A stretch of DNA of 64,000 nt from Muricea muricata (lineage: Eukaryota > Cnidaria > Anthozoa > Malacalcyonacea > Plexauridae): contig OY979717.1 in the NCBI GenBank assembly GCA_963855995.1, positions 33,881,997 through 33,945,996 on the forward strand, given 5' to 3'. Below, piece by piece: positions 999 through 49,628 of the stretch. How positions within the stretch are numbered: position 1 is the first letter of the stretch; every line of letters starts with the position of its first letter. The notes beneath the pieces are model-generated. The model was not told where the DNA came from and ran no database searches. It saw only the letters and a list, made by a program, of their open reading frames with translations. The position numbers and the translations under genes were made by a program.

Positions 999-1539
999 AT
1001 GAAAATGACGCCCGATTACATTCAAGAAACGCTGATTCAACTTCAAAGGAACTGGAATGGGCGTTGTGCCCGCAATCCAATGGTTGTACATTTCCACCGT
1101 GCCCCGTGGTCAGGCATATATTTCGCTACAGACTCAGGGTTGCTCCACAACGACATTTTTACCTGAGTATACATAACACCAGCTAGTCCACCATAACACC
1201 AATTGGATGGGAAATAGTTCTGTTTCCTGGGAAGTAAATTTAGTTTCTTGAGAAAGTAGGATTGAGGTAAGCAAACAGAAAACGTTATTAGGAGCCCCAA
1301 TGATAGTGCAACAATGTTTCCTGATTTGAGATCAGAAAGAACCCCCCCCTTAAAAAAAGGGAAATGTTTTCTACATGCGCAGTGAATGCCATTATTATGT
1401 ATTCTATTTAAGGAAGAAATCAGTGAAAAACCTAAAAATATTAATGTAGGTCTGAGCTATGAGCACAAACTTCAATTGGAGTCATGAAACGACTGAATAA
1501 AAAACGACAACAGTGGCTGAGATGAACAAAGTTCGAAAA

Positions 1540-2975
1540 ATCATCGCCTTACAACCAATTATAAATCATAATAGCTTGTGAATATTTTATCTTGCTCAAG
1601 AAAAGACTGTAGTTTATATAATAAACAGGAAATACATGGGTGCTTGAAAATGCCAGATTTGCTTCTTGTGTTGAACACAGTGAACTTGAACATGACAGTT
1701 TGTCTGTACCAACACTAACTGTTTCTACAAAATTATTATTGCAAAATATTAGCTTTGAATGTTTTGTCCATAGCATTATATACTTTTACAAATTTCAACA
1801 ATATTTATATATTACAAAACTACCTTATGTTATAAAAAAATATAGAAAGTACTCAAATAATATTTAAACAAGAGACACATTCAAATATAATTTGAACATT
1901 GACAATTCACAAGCAGACAAGTTTAAACTTTGATGGCAAGAAATATATTACTGGCACAGATGCACAATATCAGTATCACAGCATTGCACAATAATCACCT
2001 ATGCCAGGACATGAGAAAATCATCATTTTACAGCTTGTCTGTACCTACACTAATTGTTTCTACAAAATTATTATTGCAAAACTATTAGCTTTGAATAATG
2101 TTTTGTCAATAGCATCATATATTTTCAAAAATTTCAACAATATTTATATATTATAAAAATCTCGGTCATGTCATGTCATGCATTGAAAACAAGTACTTAA
2201 AGCAGACAAGTTTAAACTTTGATGACAAGAAATATATTGGCACAGTATCAGTATCAGTATCACAGTACTGCACGTACATGATCACCCATGCCGGGACATC
2301 AGAAAATCATTGCTTTACACCAACTATGAATCATAGCTCATGGATATTTTATATTGCTACAAAAGACTGTAGTTTATATAATAAATAGAAAATACAAGGG
2401 TGCTTGAAAATACCAGTTTTACTTCTCGTGTTGAACACTTGAACATGACATTTACAATGATATTTATACAGCTTACCTGTACCAACACTAACTGTTTCTA
2501 CAAAATTATTATTGCAAAATTATTAGCTTTGAATGTTTTGTCAATAGCATTATATACTTTTTAAAATTTCAACAGTATTTATGTATTACAAAACTGTCTG
2601 TCATGTCATACATTGAAAATAAAAGCATATACTCAAATAATATTTGAACAAGAGATACATTGAAACATAATTCGAACATTGGCAATTCACAAGCAGACAA
2701 TTTTTTGATGACAAGAAATAATATATTGTATTGACACAGACGCACAGTATCAGTATCACAGCATTGTATGATAATCACCCATGTGAGGACATCAGAAAAT
2801 CATCGCTTTACAACCAATTATAAATCATAATAGCTTGTGGATATTTTATGTTGCTCAAGAAAAGACTATATTTTATATAATAAACAGGAATTACATGGGT
2901 GCTTGAAAATGCCAGATTTGCTTCTCGTGTTGAACACTTGAACACAGTGAACTTGAACATGACATTTACAATGAC
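1540..2975. repeat. Degenerate satellite-like tandem block, unit 1
   Basis: AT-rich, imperfectly repeated modules. The phrase CTGTACCAACACTAACTG and close variants recur near 1705, 2040 and 2478. The AAATCATCGCTTTACA-type phrase recurs near 1540, 2025, 2305 and 2797. Short ORFs on both strands here follow from the repetition and show no protein family. I see no gene. Confidence 0.7.
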
Positions 2976-3593
2976 ATTTATATCGTATTCTTACATTATC
3001 AGGCTAGTTCGTTATCTAGTAGGTGATGAAATATGAATTGGTCACAAAAAGTTGTTGATAAATTACCTTAAAATCCTTGTTAATGTTCCGTTAAGTGCGA
3101 TCGCCGGCGGCCGGCGTTCGTTTCTCATGACTTCATGCATAAAATTTTCGACATGTTGGATTGAAAAATCAGTATATCACTCCAGTTGAGGTTTTGAAAA
3201 GTTTTCCAATTTGTTAGTTCAGTGAAAATTTTAACAAACGTCATCCAAATGTTTTCAGTAATTGGCTATAAGCTAACATTACAGTTATACAGTTACAGTT
3301 ACGCGCACAACTACAATATATCTGCATTCGCAGATACAAAAATGAACATGAGATGACGATGAAACAAGTCGGGAAATGATTAAAAGGAAATTGAATTTTC
3401 ATTCGTTAAGCTTAAATGTCTCGCTATTTTCTCAATATAGACTTCAGAAGTGCTACGTCACACAGTTTCGATCTATTAATACAAAACGAGACTACTTTTA
3501 TCCTGCATACATACAGTGGAGGAAATGAGACAGCCCTCTTAAAAGGTCCATGTTCGGAAGTCGGAACACACAAGTTTACGCCCTCCCTCCGTG

Positions 3594-3669
3594 TTATAAA
3601 TTAAATCGGCAGCAGCTAGGCTTAACTATATCGCGTCAGTTAACACAAGGACAGAAGATCAAGTACCGG
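3594..3669 (+). promoter_or_regulatory. Candidate promoter and non-coding first exon of the DUF3472 gene, unit 1
   Basis: A TATA-like TATAAATT at 3595 is followed by an initiator-like TCAGTT near 3636 and a consensus splice donor (exon ending CCGG at 3669, intron starting GTAAGTC). The block is kept in all three units. The first good acceptor in the right place is the pyrimidine-rich ...TTCATGTAG at about 12710, just 5' of the DUF3472 start codon. This would give a leader intron of about 9 kb. The linkage is inferred; no transcript evidence is available. Confidence 0.35.
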
Positions 3670-4593
3670 GTAAGTCAAAAGATAGATATATTAGCAACAA
3701 AATTCAACCATGTCCGAATTGAAAAGAAATCCTTCTCCTTGGCCTTGACAAAAGGTTACTTTGTAATTTTTGTGGTGTCATTTTGAGCCTATATGCACTG
3801 GACAGGCTAAAAATGTTTATCCGGACATAGCGTAAAATTCGTGAAGATGGCGGTTGTGAAAATTCGCTCAAGCGATACAGCACTTCTACTAGTTACAGTC
3901 GATCTTTAACGTGAAAGATGTGTCGTTGTTTGCTGTGGAAGATACTGAAATTCTCAGGCAGAAATTATGGCTTCGTGTTCGATCAAAACACACCAGGCAC
4001 AATTTTCATGAAGGTCCCTCTGCAGGTTATTGGCTATGCAGTGATGCTAAGAAATACCCTGGTCCTGCATGACTCCTCAAAGTTTTGTTGTATATGAAGG
4101 GAATATATAAAATAATACAAGTGTACGTGAGACAGGCGATGCGCCAAAGGTTACTAAATCTTTATTGGCTTATAATTTTAGATATCAAATCAAATAGATT
4201 TATCCCTTTAGAACCACGAGTGTGAGTTTTGATCTTCTAGGAAAGATGTGAGCAGCATCTTGCATTTTGCGCAGCGGTTCAGCTCATGACAATTATGCCC
4301 AAACTTCCCATCTTTCCACCTCTTTTACAATCGAAACACTTAATTATTTATGAGAATAGCAAAGCAGAACAGTGTCAGATATCTAGATAATATCTATCTC
4401 ATTTTACAAGTGTAAAAGTTTAAAATGTAAACAAAGTGTTCGATTACATTAAGGACTTTGACCACTCTTTAATTCTACTGACAGCGAGTATCCGAGACTC
4501 CGAGTGATATTTATTTAGCAATATACCTGATTCAAGCAAACGTGAAAATGTACTATCATTGTATATCTCAAATGATATGCAGTTCAAAAACTA

Positions 4594-5965: not shown

Positions 5966-6429
5966 ATTTAAACTGTTTGTTAATCCTCTCAATATATGTT
6001 GTGTTGTAATCCGAGCTCAATCAATTGAACTGAAATTTCACTTGTTGGGATTGGCTAGTACTATTATGCATGTATCAATTTTCAGCCCGAGGGGGGGGGG
6101 GAGCCGGGCATATGTGGGGGATTTAAAACTTTACCATCAGAAGTGTTCAAATGCCTGACAGTGGGGCATAAAATGACAATCAAATAAAGGAAAATATCTC
6201 CACCCCCGGGAGGTGTGGAACTTGCACACCTAGTATAACCAGGAATGGCACACTTTGGGTAATAATGATCAACAGTTTAGAAGAAGTTTGTCCGGGCGCA
6301 AACTATTTTAAATACTAATCAATACAACACAATTTTTAATTTAATGTATTTAAGGTATTTAACTACATGCCTCCTTGTTCCCAACAATTAACAAAAGGAA
6401 ATATAAATATCAACAATAGTGGTATCTGT

Positions 6430-6888
6430 CTATGCACTTTTGCAAGTGTCACATAACCAATATATGGGTATATGCTGTAAACCAGTACAGATTTGGTGGA
6501 ACCAGGATGAACAGTTACTGCAAGCTATCCAGGCAAAGTCGTCATCGTAATTATCTTGCAGCTCAGGAGGATTAAATTCGCCACATGTATTGCACAGTTC
6601 ATCACCATCTGAATCTCTCAGTGGCTATTTGTCTGTAGTCCCACCTTGATTTTTTGCCATTCTTGTAGCGGCAGCTTTCTTCGCTCCTTTCTTCCTGTTA
6701 TTTTGCACGATTTCTAGGTGTTTAAAACACATTCGTACTTCTCCAGGTTGAAGTAAAGCATTGCTTGCAGTTGCAGCTATTACATCTTCATCAGGGAACC
6801 ATTGAGCACTTGTGAAGGGGGTATTGCCTTTGATGGAATGGTAATGGAACTCACAAGCTTGTCTGGTTTTAAATAGTGACCTGCACAA
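6430..6888 (-). pseudogene. C-terminal part of the TIR-transposon protein, with PHD finger
   Basis: This is the last segment of the element's gene. Residues encoded from 6888 to 6628 continue the preceding frame after a frameshift near 6860 and end in a basic Lys/Arg-rich stretch. A TAG at 6625-6627 interrupts, but the frame stays open beyond it to a TAG at 6430-6432. That tail contains a complete PHD pattern: CNTC, then CSNC after W-I-A, then WFHQIC, then CDTC (Cys4-His-Cys3). PHD fingers read histone tails, so the intact protein may have tethered the transposon to chromatin. The family assignment rests on spacing alone; function is inferred. Confidence 0.7.
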
Positions 6889-8332
6889 AACCCATCACAA
6901 TCTTCACAATTGAGGTTGCCAAACGGGCGTTCTGGATCAGGTGTGGGTGAAGGGGAAAAATCTAGGGAGGGTCCATCTGGATACCAAAACTCATCAACAG
7001 ACACACCACTTCGGCACAATGGATGGATACACTGTGGACTATAACAACACCTTAGGTAAAACACATACTGAACAGGCAAGCCCTTAACCATATGTCTCTG
7101 CCTTAATTGCCATATGCTCTCAATATTTTTGTATAAATCAGGATATTGTAACTTCGCTTGTTTCTCGTCTTCAGCTTTTCCTTTTAAGAATTTAATAACA
7201 ATTTCTCTCTGTTTCTGCTCATCGTCGCTATTTGCTCCCTTTGTAAGATGAATGACAGTTTTGGCACAAGGTGATTTGTTTACTCGAGAAAGGTAAACGT
7301 CAATAGCTGAATCTAGATTTTTGCATAACATTTCATCGTTCACTTTGCCTGAAATTATACACGACCCGTTTAATGTCGAGGGAATGAAGAGATTAGCATG
7401 ACCCAAAGGAAGGCACCCATTTTGAAGTTCCATTCTGTTTTTGTAACTTGAACCACTGCTTTGCGTGGACACCATCATTGCTTTAGTTTGTTTTACCAGA
7501 TGTCTTTTGGTCCACCAATACTGTACCTCCTCGTGCACAGGACCCTCATCACCGCCACCGTCAACCCTAATACACTCTATATCCTTCTGTTTGCTAGTGC
7601 GAGGATTTAAAAATGCTTGCTTGATGTCCTCGTGTTTTTCTAACATTAGCATATCAGCATAATGTTGTGCGGGGTTTTTATTGAATAATTTCTTTGCCTT
7701 TACAACTCCACCACATACTTCATTTGTTGTTTCAGTTGAAGGAAAGTTGTAGCTCGTTGTTTGTAAAGCAGAGGGGTACGGACTCATATAGTCGGTTCTG
7801 GCTGTTGTAGATACGTGATATTCGTCGATAAGGTGTCTAGTCGAAAACCGGCTTGGTCATCACGCCCACGTTCATTATGTGTGTACCATCTTTGTATTGA
7901 ATATAATCTAAGCCTCTGTATAGAGCAGCACTCCAGTGACTGTCCGGTTTCTATTAAGGCGAATCCTTTCCTTGCACGACGCTGCGCAACCTCAGCTAGT
8001 CCCTTGTACCTCGCTGCTGATTTACGACATTTGTTCCTAGGCATACACAACTGAACAACAGTTCCATAGCTGATTTTCCTATGGTATTTTGCTTCCAAAT
8101 GTGCTTGAATAGTACGAAATGTTACTTTTTTCCCTAGCTTTCTACTTCCGTCGAATGTTAACAGTCCTGTCCTCCGCCATTCATTTGCACCCACGCCCCT
8201 CTTTCTGACAAATTCTTCTATCGTTGTTCCGATGTCAGGACATTTATCTTCTAGCCTTTTTACTTTTTTGCTTCGTCGTCTTTGAAAGAAACGTCTCTCT
8301 GAAATCCTTTTTTTAATCTCCCTGGTAGCCTT
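6780..8332 (-). pseudogene. Central, probably catalytic region of the TIR-transposon protein
   Basis: Two overlapping frames join here. The upstream frame is open from just after a TGA near 8333 to 7784 and includes a basic start and the phrases LLTFDGSRKLGKKVTF and GRDDQAGFRLDT. A one-base shift near 7787 leads into 335 codons containing RVDGGGDEGPVHEEVQYWW. The clustered acidic residues (DD, then D-x-D, then E) are candidates for an RNase H-like DDE transposase core, but I cannot align them to a named superfamily. A further shift near 6860 leads to the PHD-bearing tail. Confidence 0.6.
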
Positions 8333-8358
8333 TCATTTTATAAAAGCTCTCTTCCTTC

Positions 8359-9637
8359 TCAACACTTCTTTTCCTTTGCGTCCAGAGGATCTTTAATAGT
8401 TGAAAGTTCGTGCAGGTCTTCGCAGTCAGATTCAGACAAAATGATTCCATTGTCAATGTCATCTTCTTTTTCATTCAGCTGTTTTTTAAGGTTGCATACT
8501 TGCCGAGACTGCTCGATAACATGCAATTCGCATTCTTTCAAATTAAAACTAGGTAATCTCCCTGCAAAAGCATTTAGCATACTTTTGACAGAATTTGAAG
8601 CGGGTAGACTTCTTTGCATTTCGCCTGTGACACGAACAAATTCCAACCAGTTAAGTTCGCATTGATACAGTATATTACGAAGCTGATCATCGTTGATAGT
8701 CAGCTTCTTAGTATAAAACTCTTGGTCTTCAGTTACGTTCCTAGCACTATCCTCACGATGATTACGTCCAATTACATCGGTAGCACTGTCGACGTTATCG
8801 TCATTACCCGCAGTTACATCTTCCTGTTCACTGTCTGTTTCACTATTATCGGAACCTTCCGAGCTGCATGTCTGAATCATAAATGCCAAACGAATTAAGA
8901 AGTGCACGATCCTTACTCCCTGCTATGTTCTCAATAACTTCGCGAATTGCTGTAGCCTCCTCTAGAGCATCTTTGACCTCTTTGGTCTTGGCTACTATAT
9001 CGTCAAAACCGTAAATAGATTTTGCTTTGTTGCTAGACAAGCCGGCTGCCCCAACGATGGCAAATTTCAAGCGTTGCTTTTCACTCTCTGATTCTGCAAG
9101 TTTTAAAAGTTTGTTCACGGTTTCTCTACTTAGAACTGGTTTCTCCTTTTGTTTGCAAGTCACCAAATTTTTAAGTAATGACTTGAAAATATTGTAATGG
9201 ACACTAGAATTCTTCTCTGCCAAAAAAACACAGTAGTTGCCTTTAGACCTTTCACTAATCCCCAAAGTTGCAAGAAACATTTGTAAAAGTTTTCTACGGG
9301 CGTGCAAAGCCGTGTAAGTAACGTTTGGGCTTACTATTTCGAATGCAACTTTCAACTTCATGTATCCATCTTCAATTATCTTTTGTGCAACTTTAAGCAT
9401 GGCAAAACACAAACTGCAGGGTTGGGCATGTCGCTTGCAACAGACGTACCTCCGAGCTTCTATATAGTTAATTAAAGTAAGACCTTCAAAGATAGAAACA
9501 TGTACATCATTACTAACACGGTTAAATTTGGACAAAAGACGTTTTATTTGTTCAGTGTAAGTTTTCACATAATTAACATCAATATAATCTTTTTCTTCTT
9601 CACTTCTTTTGCAACTGTTGGGGGAGGCCTTTAACAA
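8359..9637 (-). pseudogene. Middle region of the TIR-transposon protein
   Basis: Two frames overlap around 8846-8907. The first (to 8846) is mostly helical, with a Cys/His group CCKRHAQPCSLC that may bind a metal. The second (to 8359) is acidic, with a Ser/Asp/Glu-rich start. Neither frame begins with a credible ATG, as expected for internal pieces of one protein split by indels. No family is recognised. Confidence 0.5.
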
Positions 9638-10583
9638 AAATTCTGCTCTTCTTCTGTCTGAGGTGTCCCTTGGACCAATTCCTTAGCGCAGTCGTTTACC
9701 GTTGAACGAGATTCCTCAATTAGGACAGGTGACTGGGGTGCATCCTGATCCAATTCCTGGAGATCTTCTTCCATGGTTGCATGGGTTTTCAAATCTAGAT
9801 CCTCCGGATCAGAAATAATGAGTGTATTATCAGTACTGCAGGTGCTTGTGCTGGACATTGAATCTTGCTTGAACAAATTAGGCAGCTTGGACTGGTTGTC
9901 GCGAACATTTTTTGGTTTTGAAGAGGACTTCTTAGATTTACCAGAAGATACCATTGAGCTTTGTTTCTTTTTTCACCAGAGCTGTAAACTGACGGTCAAC
10001 AGATTTCTTTTCCTTCTGGACTTCCAATATTTTCTCACTAATTTCATTACACTTCTTATAATTGTTCATGGCTTTTTCTTTCTGTAGCTGTTGGTTTTTA
10101 AACATTATACGATTTTCCAACAATTTTATAGTTTCGTGTAACGAATCAATCTCAAGAGCTCTTTCCTCGGATGATAATTTGGCTCTTTTCTTGGCTGGGC
10201 TTTTTGATTTTTCCACTTTGCTTCTTGACTGTCCCTTGACAAAAGCATACCCATCTTGAATGACCTTTTCTTTCGCCTTTTCCAACAAATTACCTAAACA
10301 GGAAGTTTACTATTTAGTGCTGAATATGTTTTGTAGCTATGAAGTTACCCATTTATTCACTTCAAAATTTTTGTTGTTCAATTGTCACATATTATTATAC
10401 TATCTGGGAAAATTATACAATACCTCTGTTAAGAATTACCATTGCATTCTCCTTGGCAATGGCTGCTGCAGCATCATTCACAGCAAGTTGGTATTTTGTG
10501 AGAGGTTTGGTTGAATTACGCCCATAAATTTGAGTTTTTTCCAGGACATCATTCTTTTCCATTGCTTCATACTGGGCAGTTTC
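9631..10583 (-). pseudogene. N-terminal exons of the TIR-transposon protein
   Basis: A 160-nt exon at 10424-10583 (acceptor TTGATAG, donor GTATTG) splices in phase to an exon starting at 10293 (acceptor TGTTTAG), giving a junction reading VILNRGNLLEKAKEK. The product is helical and charged: a basic stretch GQSRSKVEKSKS, then a heptad-like coiled coil to about 9950. Frames then shift near 9950 and again in a T-run near 9637, linking to a Ser/Glu-rich linker. More upstream exons probably exist but were not resolved. Splicing shows the source gene was a normal nuclear gene. Confidence 0.65.
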
Positions 10584-10897
10584 CTATCAAGACATAAAAA
10601 TTATTTACTTAACACATAGGTTTAATTTTCAACAACTGCATCTTTAACAATAGTATACAGTAAAATGTGGCAAAATAAGATAAGCATATTCACACGTAAT
10701 AAGCAACATATGTATTTGTTATGCAAAAAAAGTTATAAATAATTGAAAGAAGAGTTCAAAATTTACCAGTGCAGAAACTGGTATCATTCCTATACATACA
10801 AACATAAATTTGAATTCTCATGGTACCTTTTATGTGCTTTCAAATGTGCAAGTTCTATTATTTTTTCTATTTCCTGTAATATAAAACAGTTAAAATA

Positions 10898-11262
10898 CAG
10901 GGTGTCCCAAAAAACCCCAAAAACTATTGAAATCACCTATTGTTAACATTTGAATGCCCTAGCACTTGTTAAAAATTCAAATATCTTTGTAAAGTACGTT
11001 TGTTTTGCTCATGGGAATATTGATAAAAACCAAATGGAATAGGCTAAAATAGCCCATGCATAAAATTTGATTGCATTTTTAATATGCACTCGTAGGTTTA
11101 GTTTTTTTGTCTGGCATAAAAATAGTTAACACTGAGTATTACTATTAATTATGACGGTTATGTCAATAGTTTATCCACTCGTGGGTTCAATTTAGTGCTA
11201 GGCATTGAAATTCTAACAATAGATCATTTTCAATAGTTTTGGGGTTTTTTTGGGACACCCTG
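10898..11262. mobile_element. Mariner-type MITE nested in the TIR transposon
   Basis: 365 bp with inverted ends CAGGGTGTCCCAAAAA and flanking TA dinucleotides (10896-10897 and 11263-11264). This is the usual signature of Tc1/mariner non-autonomous elements. It shares internal sequence, in the opposite orientation, with the MITE at 14227-14693. Confidence 0.85.
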
Positions 11263-11829
11263 TATAACGGCAAATATTTCAAAGATCTTTAATACTCAAA
11301 CAATCCATTATTTACATATTAAATTATACTGAATTATGTATATATAAAATTTACATATACGCATTTCTAAAATAAAATAAGCAGGCGTGTTTTGCACTGT
11401 TTAAAATTGCACTTGAGAGTTATGCTTTTCTGATATCGATGGTTTAAATAATCTATGGATTAAATGGGATTATATTAAAAATTGAATGTAAAACTTACCT
11501 TTAAAAATTCGCAGACGCAAACTCATAATTGAACTTCGTAATCGTATTCTTCGAACATGTGCTCTAATATGGTCACGTGTATATCGCTATCACGCGGTAA
11601 GCACACAAATATCGTGAACGTATAAATATAACACCGCGTGCACCGTAAAATACCGTAGAAATTAACCGTAAATTCCGTAAAAAGTTAAAAATTAACATGG
11701 TTCAAAACCCCCACCCTGGGACGGCGTTTAAGAAGCAAAAGCCCCAGGGTGGGAGCACAACCACATGTCAAACCCCCCACATATGCCCGGCCTCCCCCCC
11801 CCTCGCGCTTAACATTGATACATGCATTA

Positions 11830-16935: not shown

Positions 16936-17600
16936 AAGAGTATTGTCACTCTTGTAACCTTTCCATACACAGTATTGCCACGCCTGTAACCTTGCCATAC
17001 ACAGTATTGTCACGCCTGTAACATTGCCATACACAGTATTGTCACGCTTGTAACCTTTCCATACACAGTATTGCCACGCCTGTAACCTTGCATTATACAG
17101 TATTGTCACGCCTGTAACCTTGACATACACAGTATTGTCACGCCTGTAACCTTTCCATGCACAGTATTGCCACACCTGTAACCTTGCATTACACAGTATT
17201 GCCACGCCTGTAACCTTGCATTACACAGTATTGCCACACCTGTAACCTTGCATTACACAGTATTGCCACGCCTGTAACCTTGCATTATACAGTATTGCGA
17301 CGCCTGTAACCTTGCATTACACAGTATTGTCACGCCTGTAACCTTGCCATACACAGTATTGTCACGCCTGTAACCTTTCCATGCACAGTATTGCCACACC
17401 TGTAACCTTGCATTACACAGTATTGTCACGCCTGTAACCTTGCCATACACAGTATTGTCACGCCTGTAACCTTTCCACACACAGTATTGTCACGCCTGTA
17501 ACTTTTCCATACACAGTATTGTCACGCCTGTAACTTTTCCATACACAGTATAGCCACGCCTGTAACCTTACCATATACTATATTGCCAAGCCTATAAACA
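16936..17600. repeat. 32-bp minisatellite, left array, unit 1
   Basis: About 20 head-to-tail copies of a 32-bp unit, CACGCCTGTAACCTTGCCAT followed by ACACAGTATTGT, with variants. The shared frame gives long repetitive minus-strand ORFs that are not genes. The matching array in unit 2 (45212-45560) has about half as many copies. There are no spacers, so it is not a CRISPR-like array. Confidence 0.9.
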
Positions 17601-17672
17601 TACCGTATACGATTGAAGTGGTTTTCGTTGATGTACCGCAGGCTGTATGTTAGAGTTAAATACCGAGAAGGA

Positions 17673-26968: not shown

Positions 26969-27460
26969 CGCGACTTTCCAACCTTCTCTTCTACCTTCAA
27001 CAAATCAGTAACTGACAACGTGCTTCAGTCACGTGCTGCTGATACGTATGCGCATGAATGGCAAATGGCAATGGCGCATACGCATAAATCTGATAATGAA
27101 ACCGCAGCACATACGCACACTTGCTCAAAATCATCCTGACAAACAAAAATCTCACAAATCAGGTTGAACGTCGAGAATAGGGGGCTGCTCGCCGGCGCTC
27201 GCAGCAATTATTACAATTTGATGACGCAAGGCATAATAATTTCGAACGAAAGCAAGGTCGTTCGTTCGAACGTTCGCGAAAAGTCGTTCAGAAAACCGTG
27301 TGAATTTTGGCCTTTGATCGTTCGCAATTTTCAGTCCAAATCAATGAAACGTTCGAGTAGTTCGTTGAAAATTTCACACCGTTCGTTCCCCGTTCGTTAG
27401 TCGTTCGTTGAATTTTTCGTTCCAACGAAAGATCGTTAACGTTGGTTTTCCCGTGGACGG
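26969..27460. other. Non-coding flank of the Helitron
   Basis: Contains CGTTCG-rich sequence at about 27230-27440 and direct/inverted ACGCATA-type words near 27040-27110. The Helitron 5' end (minus-strand TC) should be here but was not located. No gene. Confidence 0.4.
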
Positions 27461-27464
27461 TCAC

Positions 27465-27658
27465 ATATTTCTCTTATTTGTCGATTCAGCATGACTAGTA
27501 TTTGCACGAGTAGGTTCTTTGTAGTCAACAAAATCACGATTTTCAGATTCTAAAATACTTGCAATTACACTTAGTTCGTTATCTAAAATAATGTGGTTCG
27601 GTAAAAATGTATTTTGGGTTAATATTGATGGCGAGAAGTCGTCTTCATTACTCTCCAT
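27465..27658 (-). pseudogene. 5' half of the split KIAA1958/DUF3504-like ORF, unit 1
   Basis: Begins at an ATG at 27658 (MESNEDDFSPSILTQNTF) and runs for about 64 codons to the insertion boundary, where the frame stops. The rest of the ORF is at 18076-18260. Its counterpart in unit 2 is continuous, apart from a damaged start. Confidence 0.45.
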
Positions 27659-27776
27659 TTTGCTTGTGAATCGAAGCAACTCATTTAGCCAAAAGCCCCG
27701 AAAATTTACGAATAAATTAAACTGTGACGTAAAGCTTCTTTGGGATTCTCCGTCTCGATATCTCGGCTTTTAGCCG

Positions 27777-27821
27777 AATACAGCCTTCGGGCTTCGCCCT
27801 CACGCTGTATTTGGCTAAAAG
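27777..27821. repeat. Hairpin CTTTTAGCC / GGCTAAAAG, unit 1
   Basis: Arms CTTTTAGCCGAATACAGC and GCTGTATTTGGCTAAAAG around a GC-rich loop. The same hairpin is at 46367-46420 in unit 2, directly before the right minisatellite. Confidence 0.7.
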
Positions 27822-27849
27822 TCTCGCTTCGCGGGCTTTAACTCTCACT

Positions 27850-28110
27850 TGTGACGCCTGTAACCGTACCATATACCGTATTGTTATGCATGCTTGTAAT
27901 CTTACCATATACAGTATTTTCACGCCTGTAACCTTACCATACACAGCATTTTCACGCCTGTAACCTTACCATACACGGTATTTTCACGTCTGTAACCTAA
28001 TATATACAGTACTATCACGCCTGCATGCAACCTTACCAAATACAATATTGTCATGCCTTTAATTTAAGCTTACGATATACGGTATTCTCACGCCTGTAAC
28101 CTTACCATAT
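27850..28110. repeat. 32-bp minisatellite, right array, unit 1
   Basis: About eight degenerate copies of the same CACGCCTGTAACC family unit as the array at 16936-17600, in the same orientation. The pair brackets the split ORF and composite insertion. Unit 2 has the equivalent at 46450-46770. Confidence 0.85.
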
Positions 28111-28607
28111 AAAACGATCAACAATGAACAATCCATGAAGAAAACACAAAAGAAACATATCTAATCAATATTTGTAAATCGGATAAAGATTTTGCCCTGA
28201 TTTACATAAACTTTGAGTTTGAGATTATGAAAGAATACGAACGTTTTCATCCAGGCATTTTATAAGTACGATAAAGCATTCCGCTCGTGACTGTAAATCT
28301 GGTACGGAGCAATTGCTTATGCTTTATAGAAAGCAGAAAAAATTATTTTGCCCTATATCTCAGATCAGTTTATAACCAGTTTGATTCAAATTAGAACTGA
28401 CTGGACCATTTGCTACTCTCTTAAGTCTCGCTCAGGTATAAAATGCGTCCCTAATTTTTCATTGCGTATGTTGTTTTGCGCATCCGATTCAAGGTTATCA
28501 TATTGCAATGAAACTCGTCCCCACCCCCTTCCCACTTCAGTCTCTGGATGGACCTTGATAATATAATTTTGCAAACATACAAACTATTGCGGGCGATTAA
28601 TTTTCCC
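28111..28607. other. Spacer 3' of the GPCR gene, unit 1
   Basis: AT-rich, homologous to 46780-47281 in unit 2. It probably contains the GPCR 3' UTR. No other gene is seen. Confidence 0.5.
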
Positions 28608-29564
28608 TTAAACACAGATGTTTTTGAAGATTTTTTTCGCTTTCGCTCTTAAAATCGGATTGTTCCAAAAGAAGACGAGGGAATTCAGTGATGAAGCACT
28701 CAGCGATATAGTAACACTCCAGAGTACGGAGAGCAGTAGCGTATCATTTGCCGGTTGGGAATAAGTGATTGTGAACGGAACATTGCAACACAAAGTGAGA
28801 CCAACAGCAATTGCGCACGATTTGGCCATTTTGATCATGTGTATCTGCTTTGTCCGACTGATTCGACCCATAACTTTCACTTCAGTAACTTGCTCGTCAG
28901 TCTCAAGTGTATCCGCGCTCCGAGAACTTGCCTTTACAGTGAGATATATCACAACATTGATATATAAACTGGCGAACGCAATAAAACCAGAAAGAGCGCT
29001 AATAATAATGTACACATCTTTACCGAAAACCAAGCCGGATAAACGTACAGCTAAAACAAGCAACCATGACGCAACGACGATTTTCAATATTCTTGATTTG
29101 GTCACTTCTGTACGATGGTAAATGGGATGTAAGACAGCCAAATATCGTTCGATGTTCAGGCCAAAGAGAGTCACTGTACTCATGGAGGCAGAACAAAAAA
29201 CTGCAAAATTATACAGAATACGAATTTTGCAGCTTGGGTGTTCAACTACGATTGTAAAAAGCATTAAAACGTAGCTCGTGTTTCCAAACAGGCCCACTAA
29301 AAGATCATTTACGGATAACAGCAATATTAAGAAGTACGATTTCTTGCTTGTAAGTTGAGGTGAAATCATGTATGCCAGAATTGTGAGCGAGTTCAGAAAT
29401 ATTGTTGATATAGTTAATAAAATATTGAGAATTAGTCCGATGATATAGTTGATGTAATATGCCTTGGATGGGAGCCCCACGACCATTCGGATTTCATCTT
29501 CGTAAAAGTGACATACTCCCCAAACTTTCTTGCCATCAAAAGTGTCGTTATTGCTGATCGCCAT
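28608..29564 (-). CDS. Rhodopsin-class (class A) GPCR, copy 1
   Basis: Intronless, 318 residues from the ATG at 29564. Seven hydrophobic segments are visible: about 38-65, 74-104, 112-138, 158-180, 184-211, 246-270 and 276-300. Class A landmarks: N58 in TM1, D87 in TM2, C112 at the start of TM3, E139-R140-Y141 (the DRY position), W167 in TM4 and P263 in TM6. The NPxxY position reads NSLVF followed by FWNNP, a variant. An N-glycosylation sequon lies at N6 (NDT). The third intracellular loop is charged and the C-tail short. Small intronless receptors like this are numerous in cnidarians; the ligand is unknown. It lies tail-to-tail with DUF3472 copy 1. Confidence 0.85.
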   Translation of the reverse strand: MAISNNDTFDGKKVWGVCHFYEDEIRMVVGLPSKAYYINYIIGLILNILLTISTIFLNSLTILAYMISPQLTSKKSYFLILLLSVNDLLVGLFGNTSYVLMLFTIVVEHPSCKIRILYNFAVFCSASMSTVTLFGLNIERYLAVLHPIYHRTEVTKSRILKIVVASWLLVLAVRLSGLVFGKDVYIIISALSGFIAFASLYINVVIYLTVKASSRSADTLETDEQVTEVKVMGRISRTKQIHMIKMAKSCAIAVGLTLCCNVPFTITYSQPANDTLLLSVLWSVTISLSASSLNSLVFFWNNPILRAKAKKIFKNICV

Positions 29565-29769
29565 ATCTGCACTTAGTGAACTGTACGTGAGTATATTTTA
29601 CAGGCTAATTCCATATGTTTGACAATGATAATTTCCAATATTGCTGAATAATTAAGGGCATATTAGGCGCAGCAGCTGAAGCAATTAAGCTCAACTATAT
29701 GTTACAGTGATCCCAATGGCCCATTGTCTATCACATCTACATCATCCTGCAATGAGTAGTTTACTTTTA

Positions 29770-29959
29770 AGGTACGTTTAAACGCTATAATTTGTCGGGC
29801 AGCCGCACAATTCAAAATTCCAGCTGGTCTATGCACGTGAATATATAAAGCATGCGCGCTGTGTCTAATTTAGGTTCGCAATCGATTCAAAGTTGATGTG
29901 TTATGGCAAATAACAGAATAACAGAATTTGAATCGCAGCTGACAAATGTAAACGCACCT
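29770..29959. mobile_element. Harbinger-like MITE upstream of GPCR copy 1
   Basis: 190 bp with inverted ends AGGTACGTTTA / TAAACGCACCT and TTA on each side (29767-29769 and 29960-29962). The identical element is in unit 2 at 48467-48656. It lies about 0.2 kb upstream of the receptor start codon and so may overlap its promoter. Confidence 0.6.
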
Positions 29960-30813
29960 TTACGTCTTCGGAAAAAAGGAAACACCCATGCTTCCTTTAC
30001 TGTTTTGCTCTCTTTCCAAGCGTGAGCAGACTAACTGTGCTTGGGTTTCACATGACGTCTAGACTCCAGTGGGGTCGAACTTCAATCCAGACACAGTCAT
30101 CACAATGAATTAAATGTTAATAGCATGTGTTAGCCTTGTGTTTGATAGAAAAACGTGCAATTTTGTATAAATTTCAGAAATCATAAGCATCAATACAGTT
30201 GAGATTACCTGTCTAAGATTCGCTGCGTAATGGATAGCGAAACCCATGAATTGGAACACAGGAACAGAGATTAGACTCACGCTGCAGTTGGCGCTAGGAT
30301 TCATATTTTTTAAGGTTCTGTCTTACTAATTTCTTTTGACATCAACCTTTACTCAATTAATTTAAAAATGCATTAGCCGAGAAGGACACGAATATATTAA
30401 TATTCAGCCATTCGGCTTTGAATTGGAAAAATGAATGCATGTGCGGGAAAACGCTCGTAGGATTAATCTAGCACGAATCTCACAATATTTCTCATGGTGG
30501 AAACACGTATGAAAAGGGGATAATATGTAGAAAAAAACGGTTAGTCTGACCGGTTACTTCGAGTGTGTATCCACACTGAGCAAGCTGCAAAATGCGCCTG
30601 AGTACGGAGGGGATCGGGGCCCTGGTGGGAATCGGCTTTTGACGAATGCCATTATGCCAGCCAAATGCAATGCTATACTGAGAGGTCACGTCGACTTGAG
30701 TAATGTGATATTTCGAAACTGAATCCATTTTTCAGCTTTCCTGGTGTGGGTATATAGACTCTAGTCTAACAACACAAACATCATTATCGGCTGAGTACAT
30801 AACGCTAGGATAA

Positions 30814-30933
30814 GGCCTGTTTCAGACGTCGAACTTTTCATGTGCCGAACCTAGTGTAAATGAGCTACAACAAAGAGTTTAGTTCATTTGCATTAGACTC
30901 GGCACATAAAAAGTTCCACGTCTGAAACAAGCC
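30814..30933. mobile_element. Harbinger-like MITE, unit 2 copy
   Basis: Same element and site as 595-714, flanked by TAA. About 120 bp. Confidence 0.6.
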
Positions 30934-31486
30934 TAAGACACAATGAAAATGACGCCCGATTACATTCAAAAAACGCTGATTCAACTTCAAAGGAACTTGA
31001 ACGGGCGTTGTGCCCGCAATCCAATGGTTGTACATTTCCACCGTGCCCCGTGGTCAGGCATATATTTCGCTACAGACTCAGGGTTGCTCCACAACGACAT
31101 TTTTACCTGAGTATACATAACACCAGCTTGTCCACCATAACACCAATTGGATGGGAAATAGTTCTGTTTCCTGGGAAGTAAATTTAGTTTCTTGAGAAAG
31201 CAGGATTGAGATAAGCAAACAGAAAACGTTATTAGGAACCCCAATGATAGTGCAACAATGTTTCCTGATTTGAGATCAGGAAGAACCCCCCCCCCTCAAA
31301 AAAAAGGGAAATGTTTTCTACATGCGCAGTGAATGCCATTATTATGTATTCTATTTAAGGAAGAAATCAGTGAAAAACCTAAAAATATTAATGTAGGTCT
31401 GAGCTATGAGCACAAACTTCAATTGGAGTCATGAAACGACTGAATAAAAAACGACAACAGTGGCTGAGATGAACAAAGTTCGAAAA

Positions 31487-32925
31487 ATCATCGCCTTACA
31501 ACCAATTATAAATCATAATAGCTTGTGGATATTTTATCTTGCTCAAGAAAAGACTGTAGTTTATATAATAAACAGGAAATACATGGGTGCTTGAAAATGC
31601 CAGATTTGCTTCTTGTGTTGAACACAGTGAACTTGAACATGACAGTTTGTCTGTACCAACACTAACTGTTTCTACAAAATTATTATTGCAAAATATTAGC
31701 TTTGAATGTTTTGTCCATAGCATTATATACTTTTACAAATTTCAACAATATTTATATATTACAAAACTACCTTATGTTATAAAAAAAATATAGAAAGTAC
31801 TCAAATAATATTTAAACAAGAGACACATTCAAATATAATTTGAACATTGACAATTCACAAGCAGACAAGTTTAAACTTTGATGGCAAGAAATATATTACT
31901 GGCACAGATGCACAATATCAGTATCACAGTATTGCACAATAATCACCTATGCCAGGACATGAGAAAATCATCATTTTACAGCTTGTCTGTACCTACACTA
32001 ATTGTTTCTACAAAATTATTATTGCAAAACTATTAGCTTTGAATAATGTTTTGTCAATAGCATCATATATTTTCAAAAATTTCAACAATATTTATATATT
32101 ATAAAACTCTCGGTCATGTCATGTCATGCATTGAAAACAAGTACTCAAAGCAGACAAGTTTAAACTTTGATGACAAGAAATATATTGGCACAGTATCAGT
32201 ATCAGTATCAGTATCACAGTACTGCACGTACATGATCACCCATGCCGGGACATCAGAAAATCATTGCTTTACACCAACTATGAATCATAGCTTATGGATA
32301 TTTTATATTGCTACAAAAGACTGTAGTTTATATAATAAATAGAAAATACAAGGGTGCTTGAAAATACCAGTTTTACTTCTCGTGTTGAACACTTGAACAT
32401 GACATTTACAATGATATTTATACAGCTTATCTGTACCAACACTAACTGTTTCTACAAAATTATTATTGCAAAATTATTAGCTTTGAATGTTTTGTCAATA
32501 GCATTATATACTTTTTAAAATTTCAACAGTATTTATGTATTACAAAACTGTCTGTCATGTCATACATTGAAAATAAAAGCATATACTCACATAATATTTG
32601 AACAAGAGATACATTGAAACATAATTCGAACATTGGCAATTCACAAGCAGACAATTTTTTGATGACAAGAAATAATATATTGTATTGACACAGACGCACA
32701 GTATCAGTATCACAGCATTGTATGATAATCACCCATGTGAGGACATCAGAAAATCATCGCTTTACAACCAATTATAAATCATAATAGCTTGTGGATATTT
32801 TATGTTGCTCAAGAAAAGACTATATTTTATATAATAAACAGGAATTACATGGGTGCTTGAAAATGCCAGATTTGCTTCTCGTGTTGAACACTTGAACACA
32901 GTGAACTTGAACATGACATTTACAA
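31487..32925. repeat. Degenerate satellite-like tandem block, unit 2
   Basis: Counterpart of 1540-2975 with point changes and a small GTATCA repeat expansion near 32185. No gene. Confidence 0.7.
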
Positions 32926-33549
32926 TGACATTTATATCGTATTCTTACATTATCAGGCTAGTTCGTTATCTAGTAGGTGATGAAATATGAATTAGTCACA
33001 AAAAGTTGTTGATAAATTACCTCAAAATCCTTGTTAATGTTCCGTTAAGTGCGATCGCCGGCGGCCGGCGTTCATTTCTCATGACTTCATGCATAAAATT
33101 TTCGGGACATGTTGGATTGAAAAATCAGTATATCACTCCAGTTGAGGTTTTGAAAAGTTTTCCAATTTGTTAGTTCAGTGAAAATTTTAACAAACGTCAT
33201 CCAAATGTTTTCAGTAATTGGCTATAAGCTAACATTACAGTTATACAGTTACAGTTACGCGCACAACTACAATATATCTGCGTTCGCAGATACAAAAATG
33301 AACATGAGATGACGATGAAACAAGTCGGGAAATGATTAAAAGGAAATTGAATTTTTATTCGTTAAGCTTAAATGTCTCGCTATTTTCTCAATATAGACTT
33401 CAGAAGTGCTACGTCACACAGTTTCGATCTATTAATACAAAACGAGACTACTTTTATCCTGCATACATGCAGTGGAGGAAATGAGACAGCCCTCTTAAAA
33501 GGTCCATGTTCGGAAGTCGGAACACACAAGTTTACGCCCTCCCTCCGTG

Positions 33550-40739: not shown

Positions 40740-41830
40740 TATTTGTTCTTCCAGATAAACAAAAAGTTAAAATACTCTTGTCTAACGTTTCGGTGTCCTC
40801 TACGGAAATTATTATCAAACACCATGTCATGAAACTATAAAATTCATAGTGTTTCATACTGATAAAAGTTTCCGTACTGGAAAACGAAACGTTAGACAAT
40901 CAATTGAACTGAAATTTCACTTGTTGGAATTGGCTAGTACTATCAGGGCTGGAAGAGCCTTCTCGGTTCGGTGTCTGTTTCGGTTCTTTTAAACAAACAG
41001 TATGTACAAAAAAATTACTCAACAAATTATGTCACAACTTCAAATTCATGTTCAAATTCAAAAGTTAATTGAATAATTATGAATTATAAATTGAAAATGA
41101 ATTTCATAATTTTCTTAATCTTACATCTTTCCATGCGTATTTTTGCTCACTTTTGTCAGTGAAGGTTCACACAACTTCATAGGCGAAGTAACCGAAGTTG
41201 TCACTTGAACAACCGAGACTGACGGTTCTTTTACGGACGCTCTGTGTCAATATCTGTGCCAAAAAGAAGCCCGAATCGAGCGAGATTTTCAGTTAATCAC
41301 AAACCTCGATTTTGTTTGCAATTTCGATTCTGCACAGGTTTTGCCCCTAACAACAATGTCAGCGAATGTCATTCTAGCGTATAAAAACGACTTCTAGCGC
41401 TAATATTTCTGTTTATCAGTTACACGTGGTTAGGGCAAAATTTAAACCCAAACTCAATTACATACGCCAAATTGAGAATCGCACGCGACACGTGTAAACC
41501 GGTTTTAAATGTTTGATGATTTTCATGCTTATGCATTTAAAACCTACTTTGAGGCAATCCTTATTTTTAATTATAATATAACCTTGTGGCAATCCTTATT
41601 TTTAATTATAATATTGTCATATTGATTGTAAAATGCACCTGCACCTGAATAAATTATAGTGCAATTATATAGATAGTTAGTAACCACGTAGGACCCATGT
41701 ATGCAATGTGCGTACATACTTTTTATTAGTCTACTAGTCTAGCTAGAAAAGAGTTTTTCTTTCAAAGACTTTAACTTGTCGGTTAATGTCGATTTATCAA
41801 TTTAATATTTTTTATCGCCTTCATGTAGAA
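40740..41830. other. Non-coding region upstream of DUF3472 copy 2
   Basis: Includes the small AACGTTTCG inverted repeat (about 40780-40898), the empty site of the 5.76-kb transposon (40943) and a short local duplication of CTTGTGGCAATCCTTATTTT-type sequence near 41555-41610. No gene. Confidence 0.55.
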
Positions 41831-45897: not shown

Positions 45898-46287
45898 CTA
45901 AATACAGCTCGCTGGTACTTTATCATGCTTTACCGGTGTTTTATCATTTCTTTCGTTCGCCCATTCTTTCCGAGAACGAACTGCCCAAGCTGTATTATGT
46001 TTGGTGTTTAACGGGATTCGGCTTTCTTTCTTTTTCTCCCACTCTTCATCCCTGATAGGTGATATATTTCTCTTATTTGTCGATTCGGCATGACTAGTAT
46101 TTGCACGAGTAGATTCTTTGTAGTAAAAAAAATCACGATTTTCAGATTCTAAAATACTTGCCATTATACTTAGTTCGTCATCTAAAATAATGCGGTTCGG
46201 TAAAAATGTATTTTGGGTTAATCTAGCTTGATGACGAGAAGTCGTATTCATTACTCTCCATTTTGCTTGTGAATCGAAGCAACTCAT
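45898..46287 (-). pseudogene. KIAA1958/DUF3504-like ORF fragment, unit 2
   Basis: Continuous 129-codon frame joining the two halves that are 9 kb apart in unit 1: NRDFFYYKEST ... NISPIRDEEWEKKKESRIPL ... WAVRSRKEWANERN. The ATG matching 27658 is at 46261, but that frame meets a TAG after about 12 codons, so the start is damaged by a small indel. Only the N-terminal region is present; no recombinase core. A relic. Confidence 0.45.
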
Positions 46288-46366
46288 TTAGCCAAAAGCC
46301 CCGAAAATTTAGGAATAAATTAAACTGTGACGTAAAGCTCCTTTGGGATTCTTGCCGATATCTCGG

Positions 46367-46420
46367 CTTTTAGCCGAATACAGCCTTCGGGCTTCGCCCT
46401 CACGCTGTATTTGGCTAAAA
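46367..46420. repeat. Hairpin CTTTTAGCC / GGCTAAAA, unit 2
   Basis: Counterpart of 27777-27821, next to the right minisatellite. Confidence 0.7.
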
Positions 46421-46449
46421 ACCTCGCTTCGCGGGCTTTAACTCTCGCT

Positions 46450-46770
46450 TGTGACGGCTGTAACCGTACCATATACCGCATTGTTATGCATGCCTGTAAT
46501 CTTACCATATACAGTATTTTCACGCCTGTAACCACACTATACACAGTATTTTCACGCCTGTAATCTTGCCATACACAGTATTTTCACGCCTGTAATCTTA
46601 CCATATACCGTATTTTCACGCCTGTAACCTTACCATACACGGTATTTTCACGTCTGTAACCCTAATGTATACAGTACGATCACGCCTGTATGCAACCTTA
46701 CCAAATACAGTATTGTCATGCCTTTAATTTAAGCTTACGATATACAGTATTCTCACTCCTGTAACCTTAC
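46450..46770. repeat. 32-bp minisatellite, right array, unit 2
   Basis: About ten degenerate copies, two more than in unit 1, in the same orientation as the left array. Confidence 0.85.
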
Positions 46771-47281
46771 CATATAAAACGATCAACAATTCATGAAGAA
46801 AACACAAAAGAAACATATTTAATCAATATTTGTAAATGGAATAAAGACTTTGCCCTGATTTATATCAACTTTAAGTTTGAAATTATGAAAGAATACGAAC
46901 GTTTTCATCCAGGCATTTTATAGGTACGATAAAGCATTCGCATCTGATCTTTATCCGATCTACAACCGCTCGTCTTCGGCTCGTGTTTGTAAATGTGGTA
47001 CGGAGCAATTGCTTATGCTTTATAGAAAGTAGAAAAAATTATTTTGCCCAGTATCTCAAATCAGTTTATAGCCAGTTTGATTCAGGTTAAAACTGACTGG
47101 ACCATTTGCTACTCTCTCTTTAGTCTCGCTCAGGTATATAATGCGTCCCTAATTTTTCATTGCGTATGTTGTTTTGCGCATCCGATTTAAGGTTGTCATA
47201 TTGCAATGAAATTCGTCCCCACCACCGTCCCACTTAAGTCTCTGGATGGACTTTGATGACATAATTTCCCAAACATACAAG

Positions 47282-47611
47282 CTATTGTGGACGATTAATT
47301 TTCCCGTAAACACAGATGTTTTTAAAGATTTTTTTCGCTTCCGCTCTTAAAACCGGATTGTTCCAAAAGAAGACGAGGGAATTCAGTGATGAAGCACTCA
47401 GTGATATAGTAACACTCCAGAGTACAGACAGCAGTAGCGTATCATTTGCCGGTTGGGAATAAGTGATTGTGAACGGAACATTGCAACACAACGTGAGACC
47501 AACAGCAATCGCGCACGATTTGGCCATTTTGATCATGTGTATCTGCTTTGCCCGACTGATTCGACCCATAACTTTCACTTCCGTAACTTGCTCGTCAGTC
47601 TCAAGTCTATC
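47282..47611 (-). pseudogene. GPCR copy 2, TM6-TM7 remnant
   Basis: Continues the receptor from ETDEQVTEVK through TM6 (CAIAVGLTLCCNVPF) and TM7 (NSLVFFWNNPVLR), but in a different frame from the first part. The original TAA stop has become TAC, so the frame runs eight residues past the copy 1 end. Confidence 0.85.
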
Positions 47612-48261
47612 TAGTCTCGAGAACTTGCCTTTACAGTGAGATATATCACAACATAGATATATAAACTGGAGAACGCAATAAAACAAGAAAGAGTGCTAAT
47701 GATAATGTACACAGCTTTACCGAAAACCAAGCCGGATAAACGTACAGCCAAAACAAGCAACCATAACGCAACGACGATTTTCAATATTCTTGATTTGGTC
47801 ACTTCTGTACGATGGTAAATGGGATGTAAGACAGCCAAATATCGTTCGATGTTCAGGCCAAAGAGAGTCACTGTACTCATGGAGGCAGAACAAAAAACTG
47901 CAAAATTATACAGAATACGAATTTTGCAGCTTGAGTGTTCAACTACGATTGTAAAAAGCATTAAAACGTAGCTCGTGTTTCCAAACAGGCCCACTAAAAG
48001 ATCATTTACGGATAACAGCAATATTAAGAAGTACGATTTCTTGCTTGTAAGTTGAGGTGAAATCATGTATGCCAGAATTGTGAGCGAGTTCAGAAATATT
48101 GTTGATATAGTTAATAAAATATTGAGAATTAGTCCGATGATATAGTTGATGTAATATGCCTTGGATGGGAGCCCCACGACCATTCGGATTTCTTCTTCGT
48201 AAAAGTGACATACTCCCCAAACTTTCTTGCCATCAAAAGTGTCGTTATTGCTGATCGCCAT
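47611..48261 (-). pseudogene. GPCR copy 2, TM1-TM5 part, truncated
   Basis: 216 codons from the ATG at 48261, nearly identical to copy 1 through TM4. In the third intracellular loop twelve bases are replaced by eleven, so SSR is followed by D and a TAG. The product would lack TM6, TM7 and the C-tail and cannot signal as a normal GPCR. Some truncated receptors act on full-length partners, but nothing here shows that. Confidence 0.85.
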
Positions 48262-48466
48262 ATCTGCACTTAGTGAACTGTACGTGAGTATATTTTACAG
48301 GCTAATTCCATATGTTTGACAATGATAATTTCCAATATTGCTGAATAATTAAGGGCATATTAGGCGCAGCAGCTGAAGCAATTAAGCTCAACTATATGTT
48401 ACAGTGATCCCAATGGCCCATTGTCTATCACATCTACATCATCCTGCAATGAGTAGTTTACTTTTA

Positions 48467-48656
48467 AGGTACGTTTAAACGCTATAATTTGTCGGGCAGC
48501 CGCACAATTCAAAATTCCAGCTGGTCTATGCACGTGAATATATAAAGCATGCGCGCTGTGTCTAATTTAGGTTCGCAATCGATTCAAAGTTGATGTGTTA
48601 TGGCAAATAACAGAATAACAGAATTTGAATCGCAGCTGACAAATGTAAACGCACCT
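48467..48656. mobile_element. Harbinger-like MITE upstream of GPCR copy 2
   Basis: Same 190-bp element as 29770-29959, with TTA flanks. Confidence 0.6.
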
Positions 48657-49512
48657 TTACGTCTTCGGAAAAAAGGAAACACCCATGCTTCCTTTACTGT
48701 TTTGCTCTCTTTCCAAGCGTGAGCAGACTAACTGTGCTTGGGTTTCACATGACGTCTAGACTCCAGTGGGGTCGAACTTCAATCCAGACACAGTCATCAC
48801 AATGAATTAAATGTTAATAGCATGTGTTAGCCTTGTGTTTGATAGAAAAACGTGCAATTTTGTATAAATTTCAGAAATCATAAGCATCAATACAGTTGAG
48901 ATTACCTGTCTAAGATTCGCTATACGTAACGGATAGCGAAACCCATGAATTGGAACACAGGAACAGAGGTTAGACTCACGCTGCAGTTGGCGCTAGGATT
49001 CATAGTTTTTAAGGTTCTGTCTTACTAATTTCTTTTGACATCAACCTTTACTCAATTAATTTAAAAATGCATTAGCCGAGAAGGACACGAATATATTAAT
49101 ATTCAGCCATTCGGCTTTAAATTGGAAAAATGAATGCATGTGCGGGAAAACGCTCGTAGGATTAATCTAGCACGAATCTCACAATATTTCTCATGGTGGA
49201 AACACGTATGAAAAGGGGATAATATGTAGAAAAAAACGGTTAGTCTGACCGGTTACTTCGAGTGTGTATCCACACTGAGCAAGCTGCAAAATGCGCCTGA
49301 GTACGGAGGGGATCAGGGCCCTGGTGGGAATCGGCTTTTGACGAATGCCATTATGCCAGCCAAATGCAATGCTAAACTGAGAGGTCACGTCGACTTGAGT
49401 AATGTGATATTTCGAAACTGAATCCATTTTTCAGCTTTCCTGGTGTGGGTATATAGACTCTAGTCTAACAACACAAACATCACTATCGGCTGAGTACATA
49501 ACGCTAGGATAA

Positions 49513-49628
49513 GGCCTGTTTCAGACGTCGAACTTTTCATGTGCCGAACCTAGTGTAAATGAGCTACAACAGTTTAGTTCATTTGCATTAGACTCGGCAC
49601 ATAAAAAGTTCCACGTCTGAAACAAGCC
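49513..49628. mobile_element. Harbinger-like MITE, unit 3 copy
   Basis: Same element as 595-714, shortened by 4 bases in the loop. Confidence 0.6.

Follow-up and report, generated by a model that had tools for sequence, protein, structure and literature searches.

Structure of the element and its relatives

The window analyzed here, a 64,000-nucleotide stretch of contig OY979717.1 from the anthozoan Muricea muricata, contains a transposon with terminal inverted repeats (TIRs) at positions 6067-11826, whose gene lies on the minus strand. The element is a broken member of a multi-family group in the same genome. Its ends, its target site duplication (TSD), a DDE core, an in-frame PHD finger and a conserved −1 overlap with slippery sites, with stems in many families, make it likely that this is a group of cut-and-paste transposons, and possibly a new superfamily, whose transposase would be a fusion of two open reading frames (ORF1 and ORF2) made by programmed −1 ribosomal frameshifting, and whose PHD finger most likely tethers it to H3K4-methylated chromatin.

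The features of the locus are collected in Table 1. The TIRs start TGCATGTATC, and the inverted arms (6066-6124 and 11770-11827, inverted-repeat pairs I4 and I5) are 91% complementary each. When joined, the flanks of the element align to two element-free paralogous sites in the window, 40897-41144 (92.0%) and 63473-63720 (91.6%). The aligned stretch crosses the insertion point and takes in 49 nt of left flank and about 198 nt of right flank; beyond those 49 nt the left flank is rearranged, and the empty site at 40897 reads TCA where the element-bearing site has TTA. In these repeats, flanks and alignments, all parts of the delimitation given in the initial annotation (TIRs, TTA on both sides, empty sites in two paralogous units) are recovered. 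The window copy is decayed and dead, with its transposase frame split into pieces at 8846-9682, 8359-8922, 7784-8332, 6780-7856, 6625-6894 and 6430-6624, the last two separated by a TAG; the initial annotation had not noticed that the frame is broken.

Across the same genome (453 Mb, 74 contigs), there are 119 matches to the element's central piece, a count that is a lower bound and in which parts of one copy may figure separately. The other matches are from 94% down to 30% identical to it, and about 20 sit in open frames of at least 1000 aa. The sample compared consists of 26 larger stretches (20 + 6) and 20 short ones; below, W denotes the window copy and L009-L055 denote related loci. Eleven core sequences are 45-64% identical pairwise. 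Moreover, near-identical copies (98-99.9%) occur at separate genomic places, which indicates that some families moved recently. The first 20 bases of the window TIR are present at 11 genomic places, 9 of them exact matches and 2 with a single mismatch, and their reversed control at none. The element termini start with TGCA. In all 11 elements with both ends recognized (W, L009, L010, L011, L012, L013, L014, L015, L018, L023 and L024), the TSD is TWA, the same on both sides; in the orientation given, 4 elements read TTA and 7 read TAA, each the reverse complement of the other. Two false end pairings were excluded, one involving L016, for which no far end of its own was recognized, the other an internal motif of L018; the remaining loci of L009-L028 have one recognized end at most.

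Catalytic core and classification

The residues D..D(43)E are invariant in 11/11 families of the core alignment, and the core is predicted to follow the order of an RNase H fold, with structure matches that are modest only, among the matches listed. As read from alignment and predicted fold, the catalytic region is an RNase H-fold DD43E transposase core. The initial annotation had left this region unplaced; the family models available give no match here either, while the type of core can now be recognized. The Cys/His cluster and the conserved acidic region (RVDGGGDEGPVHEEVQYWW, 7512-7568) that it described are both located in ORF2. As expected of DDE/RNase H cut-and-paste elements, the group combines TIRs, a fixed-length TSD and D, D and E within an RNase H fold.

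The core has no transposase match in the Pfam, NCBIfam, PHROGs and PDB-sequence models, among which Repbase, which may list the group, was not included. Further, 19 members match 22 Pfam families at E-values up to 10, with no transposase model among them, and no relative was seen in viral or prokaryotic collections with a few short peptide patterns per search. These elements could nonetheless belong, as a divergent branch, to a named superfamily with a 3-bp TSD (Zator, PIF/Harbinger, AcademX or CACTA/Chapaev), a possibility that we consider somewhat unlikely. It would account for the TWA duplication, which is the target of Harbinger elements, and for the PHD finger, which has counterparts in Chapaev. 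The available part of PMC10045372 gives TSDs of 3 bp for Zator and of 3 or 4 bp for AcademX; Zator and transposon classification are also treated in the parts available of PMC7386202, PMC8533490 and PMC4455052. Against such a placement stands the absence of any transposase model among the Pfam families matched, together with the results for the individual candidates.

In particular, an apparent resemblance in the stretch following the second Asp brought Zator into consideration, and PF07592 (ISAzo13/Zator-like) gave no support: its only match in this genome is at a different locus, outside these elements; the group shares the 3-bp TSD of Zator/ISAzo13 but differs in its TWA target, PHD finger and frameshift. 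That other locus (L035, C9:6374870-6375232) is a lone Zator/ISAzo13-like fragment with a PF07592 score of 35.4 bits. PIF/Harbinger elements share the 3-bp TWA duplication and encode a transposase and a Myb-like protein, whereas the group has one large protein, and DDE_Tnp_4 has no match in the 19 members at E-values up to 10. CACTA/Chapaev termini are of the CACTA/CACTG type, unlike the TGCA found here, and again no Pfam transposase matches. Academ elements, judged here by description, encode a nuclease or helicase according to the available part of PMC10045372, and there is no XPG, nuclease or helicase match in Pfam for the 19 members. The same portion of that source gives a C/DxxH motif between the second D and the E as a mark of hAT, MuDR, P, Kolobok and Dada; by eye, none is conserved from RVDG to NxVEL in alignment A3. 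The group is possibly a new superfamily.

A PHD finger in line with the transposase

The PHD finger of the window copy matches PF00628 (E = 1.1e-5, 25.8 bits; cut-off 24). The TAG that precedes it is in frame with exon 6625-6894 and is replaced by CAG in L009, where a single open frame of 582 aa runs from the catalytic core through the PHD finger. The proposal of a complete C-terminal PHD finger beyond an in-frame TAG is accordingly borne out, and in intact relatives the finger is in frame with the transposase. Neither outcome named as refuting the initial reading was therefore obtained: the PHD segment is not out of frame, and the central region has no match among the family models available.

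Complete or second-half PHD patterns are present in 19/27 loci (W plus L009-L034). W, L009 and L011-L018 have the finger collinear with the core, and L027 and L028 have it whole in an open frame further along; L021, L025, L026, L029, L031 and L034 show the second half, which stands in an open frame of its own, with the first half seen only in L029. For these second-half loci, an intron within the PHD finger would be the natural reading. No PHD pattern is found in L019, L020, L022-L024, L030 and L033, for some of which little 3′ sequence is covered, and L010 lacks it through a deletion that leaves a remnant. Pfam confirms every PHD finger tested. Overall, the PHD finger is genuine and widespread in the group; an earlier view, drawn from open frames, that it was confined to one clade was dropped when PHD exons were found downstream in other lineages. 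In L032 the finger (2900-3300) is encoded in a single exon but is internal, between CPHPLC and WxxGP. L031, the sister of L032 in the core tree (support 1.0; deeper nodes weak), breaks where L032 holds its finger, which suggests that the finger moved or was gained anew there.

A W or M precedes IxC and a W precedes xH in 15/15 PHD fingers compared, several of them second halves, and we take these to be the positions of the H3K4me3 cage. Structure comparison matches the PHD fingers of AL1 and TAF3 bound to H3K4me3, among the matches listed. Histone reading, and with it targeting, is what these residues and resemblances suggest. A finger that served merely as a protein or DNA contact module, or was carried as a neutral passenger, would explain why it is not found in some families and why its position in the protein varies, as in L032. 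We regard this as unlikely: the finger is kept across lineages with its W/M and W pair in every case compared, and the closest solved relatives of the L032 finger include those of DIDO1, BPTF, PHF2/PHF8 and CFP1.

A conserved −1 overlap and probable frameshift signal between ORF1 and ORF2

In 18 families, a slippery site marks the place where the transposase ORF, in the −1 frame, overlaps the coiled-coil ORF1. At loci with readable 5′ parts, ORF1 is open up to a T-run and ORF2 takes over there in the −1 frame; in L010, ORF1 is open until a premature stop just ahead of the slip site. The initial annotation had described a spliced gene with a coiled-coil N-terminus. The coiled coil is present in the basic part of ORF1. 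Splicing would account for only half of how the gene is expressed: an intron probably lies upstream, but what connects ORF1 with the transposase ORF is a −1 overlap with a slippery site. This conserved −1 frameshift signal, which had been missed, is the group's most unusual property.

Canonical or virus-proven heptamers occupy the overlap in 15/18 families. The heptamer is GGATTTT in 7 families (L011, L013, L018, L026, L028, L034 and L048), TTTTTTA in 4 (L031, L032, L033 and L041) and GAATTTT in W and L021; single families have GGGTTTT (L044), AAATTTT (L022), GCCTTTT (L015), TTTTTTC (L029) and TTTTTTG (L030). Within 25 codons on each side, the stops in the 0/−1/+1 frames of 14 families number 2/38/18 upstream and 34/0/33 downstream, where both upstream 0-frame stops belong to L011 and lie upstream of a putative intron acceptor. 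Four added families give 0/12/5 upstream and 10/0/8 downstream. A 0-frame stop lies within 6 nt of the slip site in 9/18 families. An in-phase T TTT is seen in the overlap of all 18 families, compared with a summed chance expectation of 1.3, a figure that flatters the signal because the four added families were chosen for having the site and site-less loci are left out of the 18. Among the 20 short stretches, the site is clear in 10 (L036, L037, L041, L042, L044, L047, L048, L049, L054 and L055), ambiguous in L038, and lacking or without a match in 9 (L039, L040, L043, L045, L046 and L050-L053). Among the larger loci, no slip site was found in L019, L020 and L027 and there was no match in L025; the near-copies L012, L023 and L024 were left out of this inspection.

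Downstream structure was measured as the minimum free energy (MFE) of 50-nt windows, taking the lowest value among those that start 0-6 nt after NNT TTT, compared with about 3000 other positions. The MFE falls within the lowest 2.2% of positions in 8/14 families (L011, L015, L018, L021, L022, L028, L032 and L034), ranks at 0.096 in L026, and is unremarkable in 5/14 (W, L013, L029, L030 and L031), with W weaker than 98.9% of positions. With dinucleotide shuffles, z is about −3 or lower in 6/14 families, +2.2 in W and +1.8 in L029, with a mean of −1.6. Where present, the stems start about 4-9 nt past the heptamer, and their sequences vary from family to family. Compensatory change within families was not found: the changes in near relatives are one-sided in pairs, and L055 weakens the L011 stem. 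In the window copy, positions 9620-9629 of the minus strand (GGCCTCCCCC, after the slip site) look by eye like the complement of the G-rich TIR (GGGGGAGGCC), and a long-range pairing might take the place of a local stem.

Programmed −1 ribosomal frameshifting would join ORF1 and the transposase ORF at this overlap. A short intron spanning the overlap, with the T-run as the polypyrimidine tract before its 3′ splice site, might be suspected, since the gene probably has an intron ahead of the overlap, the putative L011 acceptor lies just upstream, and several families have AG dinucleotides past the T-run. However, no intron signature is seen at the overlap. In families with cores only 45-64% identical, the open frame of ORF1 reaches the T-run and ORF2 is open from just past it, and across the 18 families the phase of the T-run relative to the two frames is the same; such an intron, which we judge improbable, would also leave the stems and the known slippery heptamers unexplained. 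It is more improbable still that ORF1 and ORF2 are separate proteins with an independent start of ORF2. Re-initiation is conceivable across a frame overlap of a few bases, but the first ORF2 ATG lies anywhere from residue 8 to 120 by family, is absent from the sequence covered in 3/18 and often falls inside or after the conserved Cys/His module, so that there is no shared start. Polymerase slippage at the T-run seems unlikely, as the run is short.

Other features of the window

A short nested element lies in the 5′ part of the transposon; its TIRs read CAGGGTGTCCC..., with TA on both sides by eye, and this stretch has no alignment with the relatives L009 and L010. In L033, a long trinucleotide-repeat run from about 2950 breaks up the transposase gene of that copy. 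The window is largely filled by big duplicated blocks, about 95-98% identical (27459-33250, 46058-51940, 999-4252 and others), and has a tandem array with a period of about 32 bp at 16939-17610.

Table 1. Features of the transposon and its flanks, in window coordinates and in the order of the gene.
Feature	Position	Strand	Basis or remark
Whole TIR transposon	6067-11826	−	inverted repeats, TTA flanks, empty sites
TSD TTA, right copy	11827-11829		flanking sequence
5′ TIR in gene orientation, begins TGCATGTATCAATGTTAAGC	11772-11826	−	inverted repeats
Nested short element, 38-bp TIRs, foreign to the family	10895-11265		inverted repeats
Putative upstream exon of ORF1 (..TKPLTKYQLAVNDAAAAIAKENAMVILNR), 5′ limit approximate	10424-10583	−	sequence; similar motif in L021, L022, L026, L028
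Putative GT-AG intron, 130 bp	10294-10423	−	sequence
ORF1: basic/coiled-coil part and Ser/acidic tail	9631-10293	−	frame broken within 9938-9972 here
Slippery site G AAT TTT; 0-frame stop TAA at 9631-9633; ORF2 goes on in −1 frame	9637-9643	−	sequence
ORF2, transposase, in pieces (8846-9682, 8359-8922, 7784-8332, 6780-7856)	6780-9640	−	broken by frameshifts here; relatives intact
N-terminal Cys/His cluster of ORF2	9407-9448	−	sequence and relatives
Conserved helical segment, putative DNA-binding helix-turn-helix (HTH)	8045-8131	−	suggested by sequence
GRDDQAGFRLD, first catalytic Asp (beta-1; candidate among several invariant Asp)	7835-7867	−	alignment, predicted fold
RVDG, second catalytic Asp	7557-7568	−	alignment, predicted fold
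NRMEL, catalytic Glu (DD43E)	7425-7439	−	alignment, predicted fold
Homeodomain-like helices	6694-6792	−	sub-threshold Pfam match in 3/19 relatives; homeodomain rows in L011 structure comparison
PHD finger C4HC3, W/W at cage positions, past a TAG absent from L009	6442-6594	−	Pfam and sequence
3′ TIR	6067-6121	+	inverted repeats
TSD TTA, left copy	6064-6066		flanking sequence and empty sites

Discussion

From these features we infer a mechanism in which most ribosomes would make ORF1 alone, with its basic part, coiled coil and Ser/acidic tail, and a fraction of ribosomes would slip back one base at the U-rich heptamer and continue into ORF2, aided in most families by the stem-loop. ORF2 would supply the Cys/His module, the putative HTH, the RNase H DD43E core, further Cys/His segments and the homeodomain-like region, and would be completed in most lineages by the PHD finger. 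The fusion enzyme would then work at the TGCA-starting TIRs, insert at TWA and duplicate it, and the most likely role of the PHD finger is to anchor the transpososome on active chromatin methylated at H3K4.

Bacterial insertion elements and RNA viruses are the best-known users of frameshifting; the former routinely keep transposase output low in this way, and the latter rely on the same signals. In insertion sequences, as described in the available part of PMC5009743, an upstream and a downstream ORF are fused by frameshifting, often −1; the group resembles the bacterial IS3 type (orfA/orfB), where the upstream ORF in frame 0 and a DDE transposase ORF, often in −1, are fused into the active enzyme. 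Unlike IS3-type elements, the group has probable introns, a TWA duplication and a PHD finger, and two short conserved patterns find no sequence relative in prokaryotic genomes. The signals themselves resemble those of polymerase expression in the umbravirus PEMV, with GGAUUUU, a 5-nt spacer and a stop at the site or 3 nt after it, and in the luteovirus BYDV, with GGGUUUU (PMC4737148, in the part available): the former heptamer serves 7 families here and the latter 1, with a 0-frame stop near the site in half of the families and, in most of those measured, a stem-loop a few nucleotides downstream. The likeness concerns signals and not proteins, as the signal here lies in a DNA transposon. The eukaryotic DNA transposons that the available part of the recoding review (PMC5009743) links to frameshifting are ciliate elements only (Tec/TBE), a likeness by description. 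At the level of titles and abstract openings, the papers retrieved describe no PHD transposase, new superfamily or frameshifting DNA transposon of this kind, with one paper on RAG1-RAG2 and one on Mutator turning up in connection with PHD fingers.

In RAG1-RAG2, an RNase H recombinase system that derives from a transposon, the partner RAG2 bears a PHD finger that reads H3K4me3, so that PHD fingers in transposons have a precedent. There, and in RAG-like elements, the finger sits on a second protein, whereas here it is on the transposase itself; no sequence relation to RAG cores is seen, and RAG2_PHD matched one member only (E = 0.16).

The boldest form of the proposal, whose chances we put at about even, is that the group constitutes a new eukaryotic DDE superfamily (DD43E, TWA duplication, TGCA termini), in which the transposase would be fused to its coiled-coil regulator through IS3-like −1 frameshift control, and insertion would be steered into active chromatin by an ancestral PHD finger that reads H3K4me3. 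If true, translational dosage control and histone reading would be united in one transposase. A single genome would offer comparative work 18 naturally occurring −1 shift signals, all at the same homologous position and with stems that have diverged, and the group would provide a candidate enzyme for chromatin-directed insertion.

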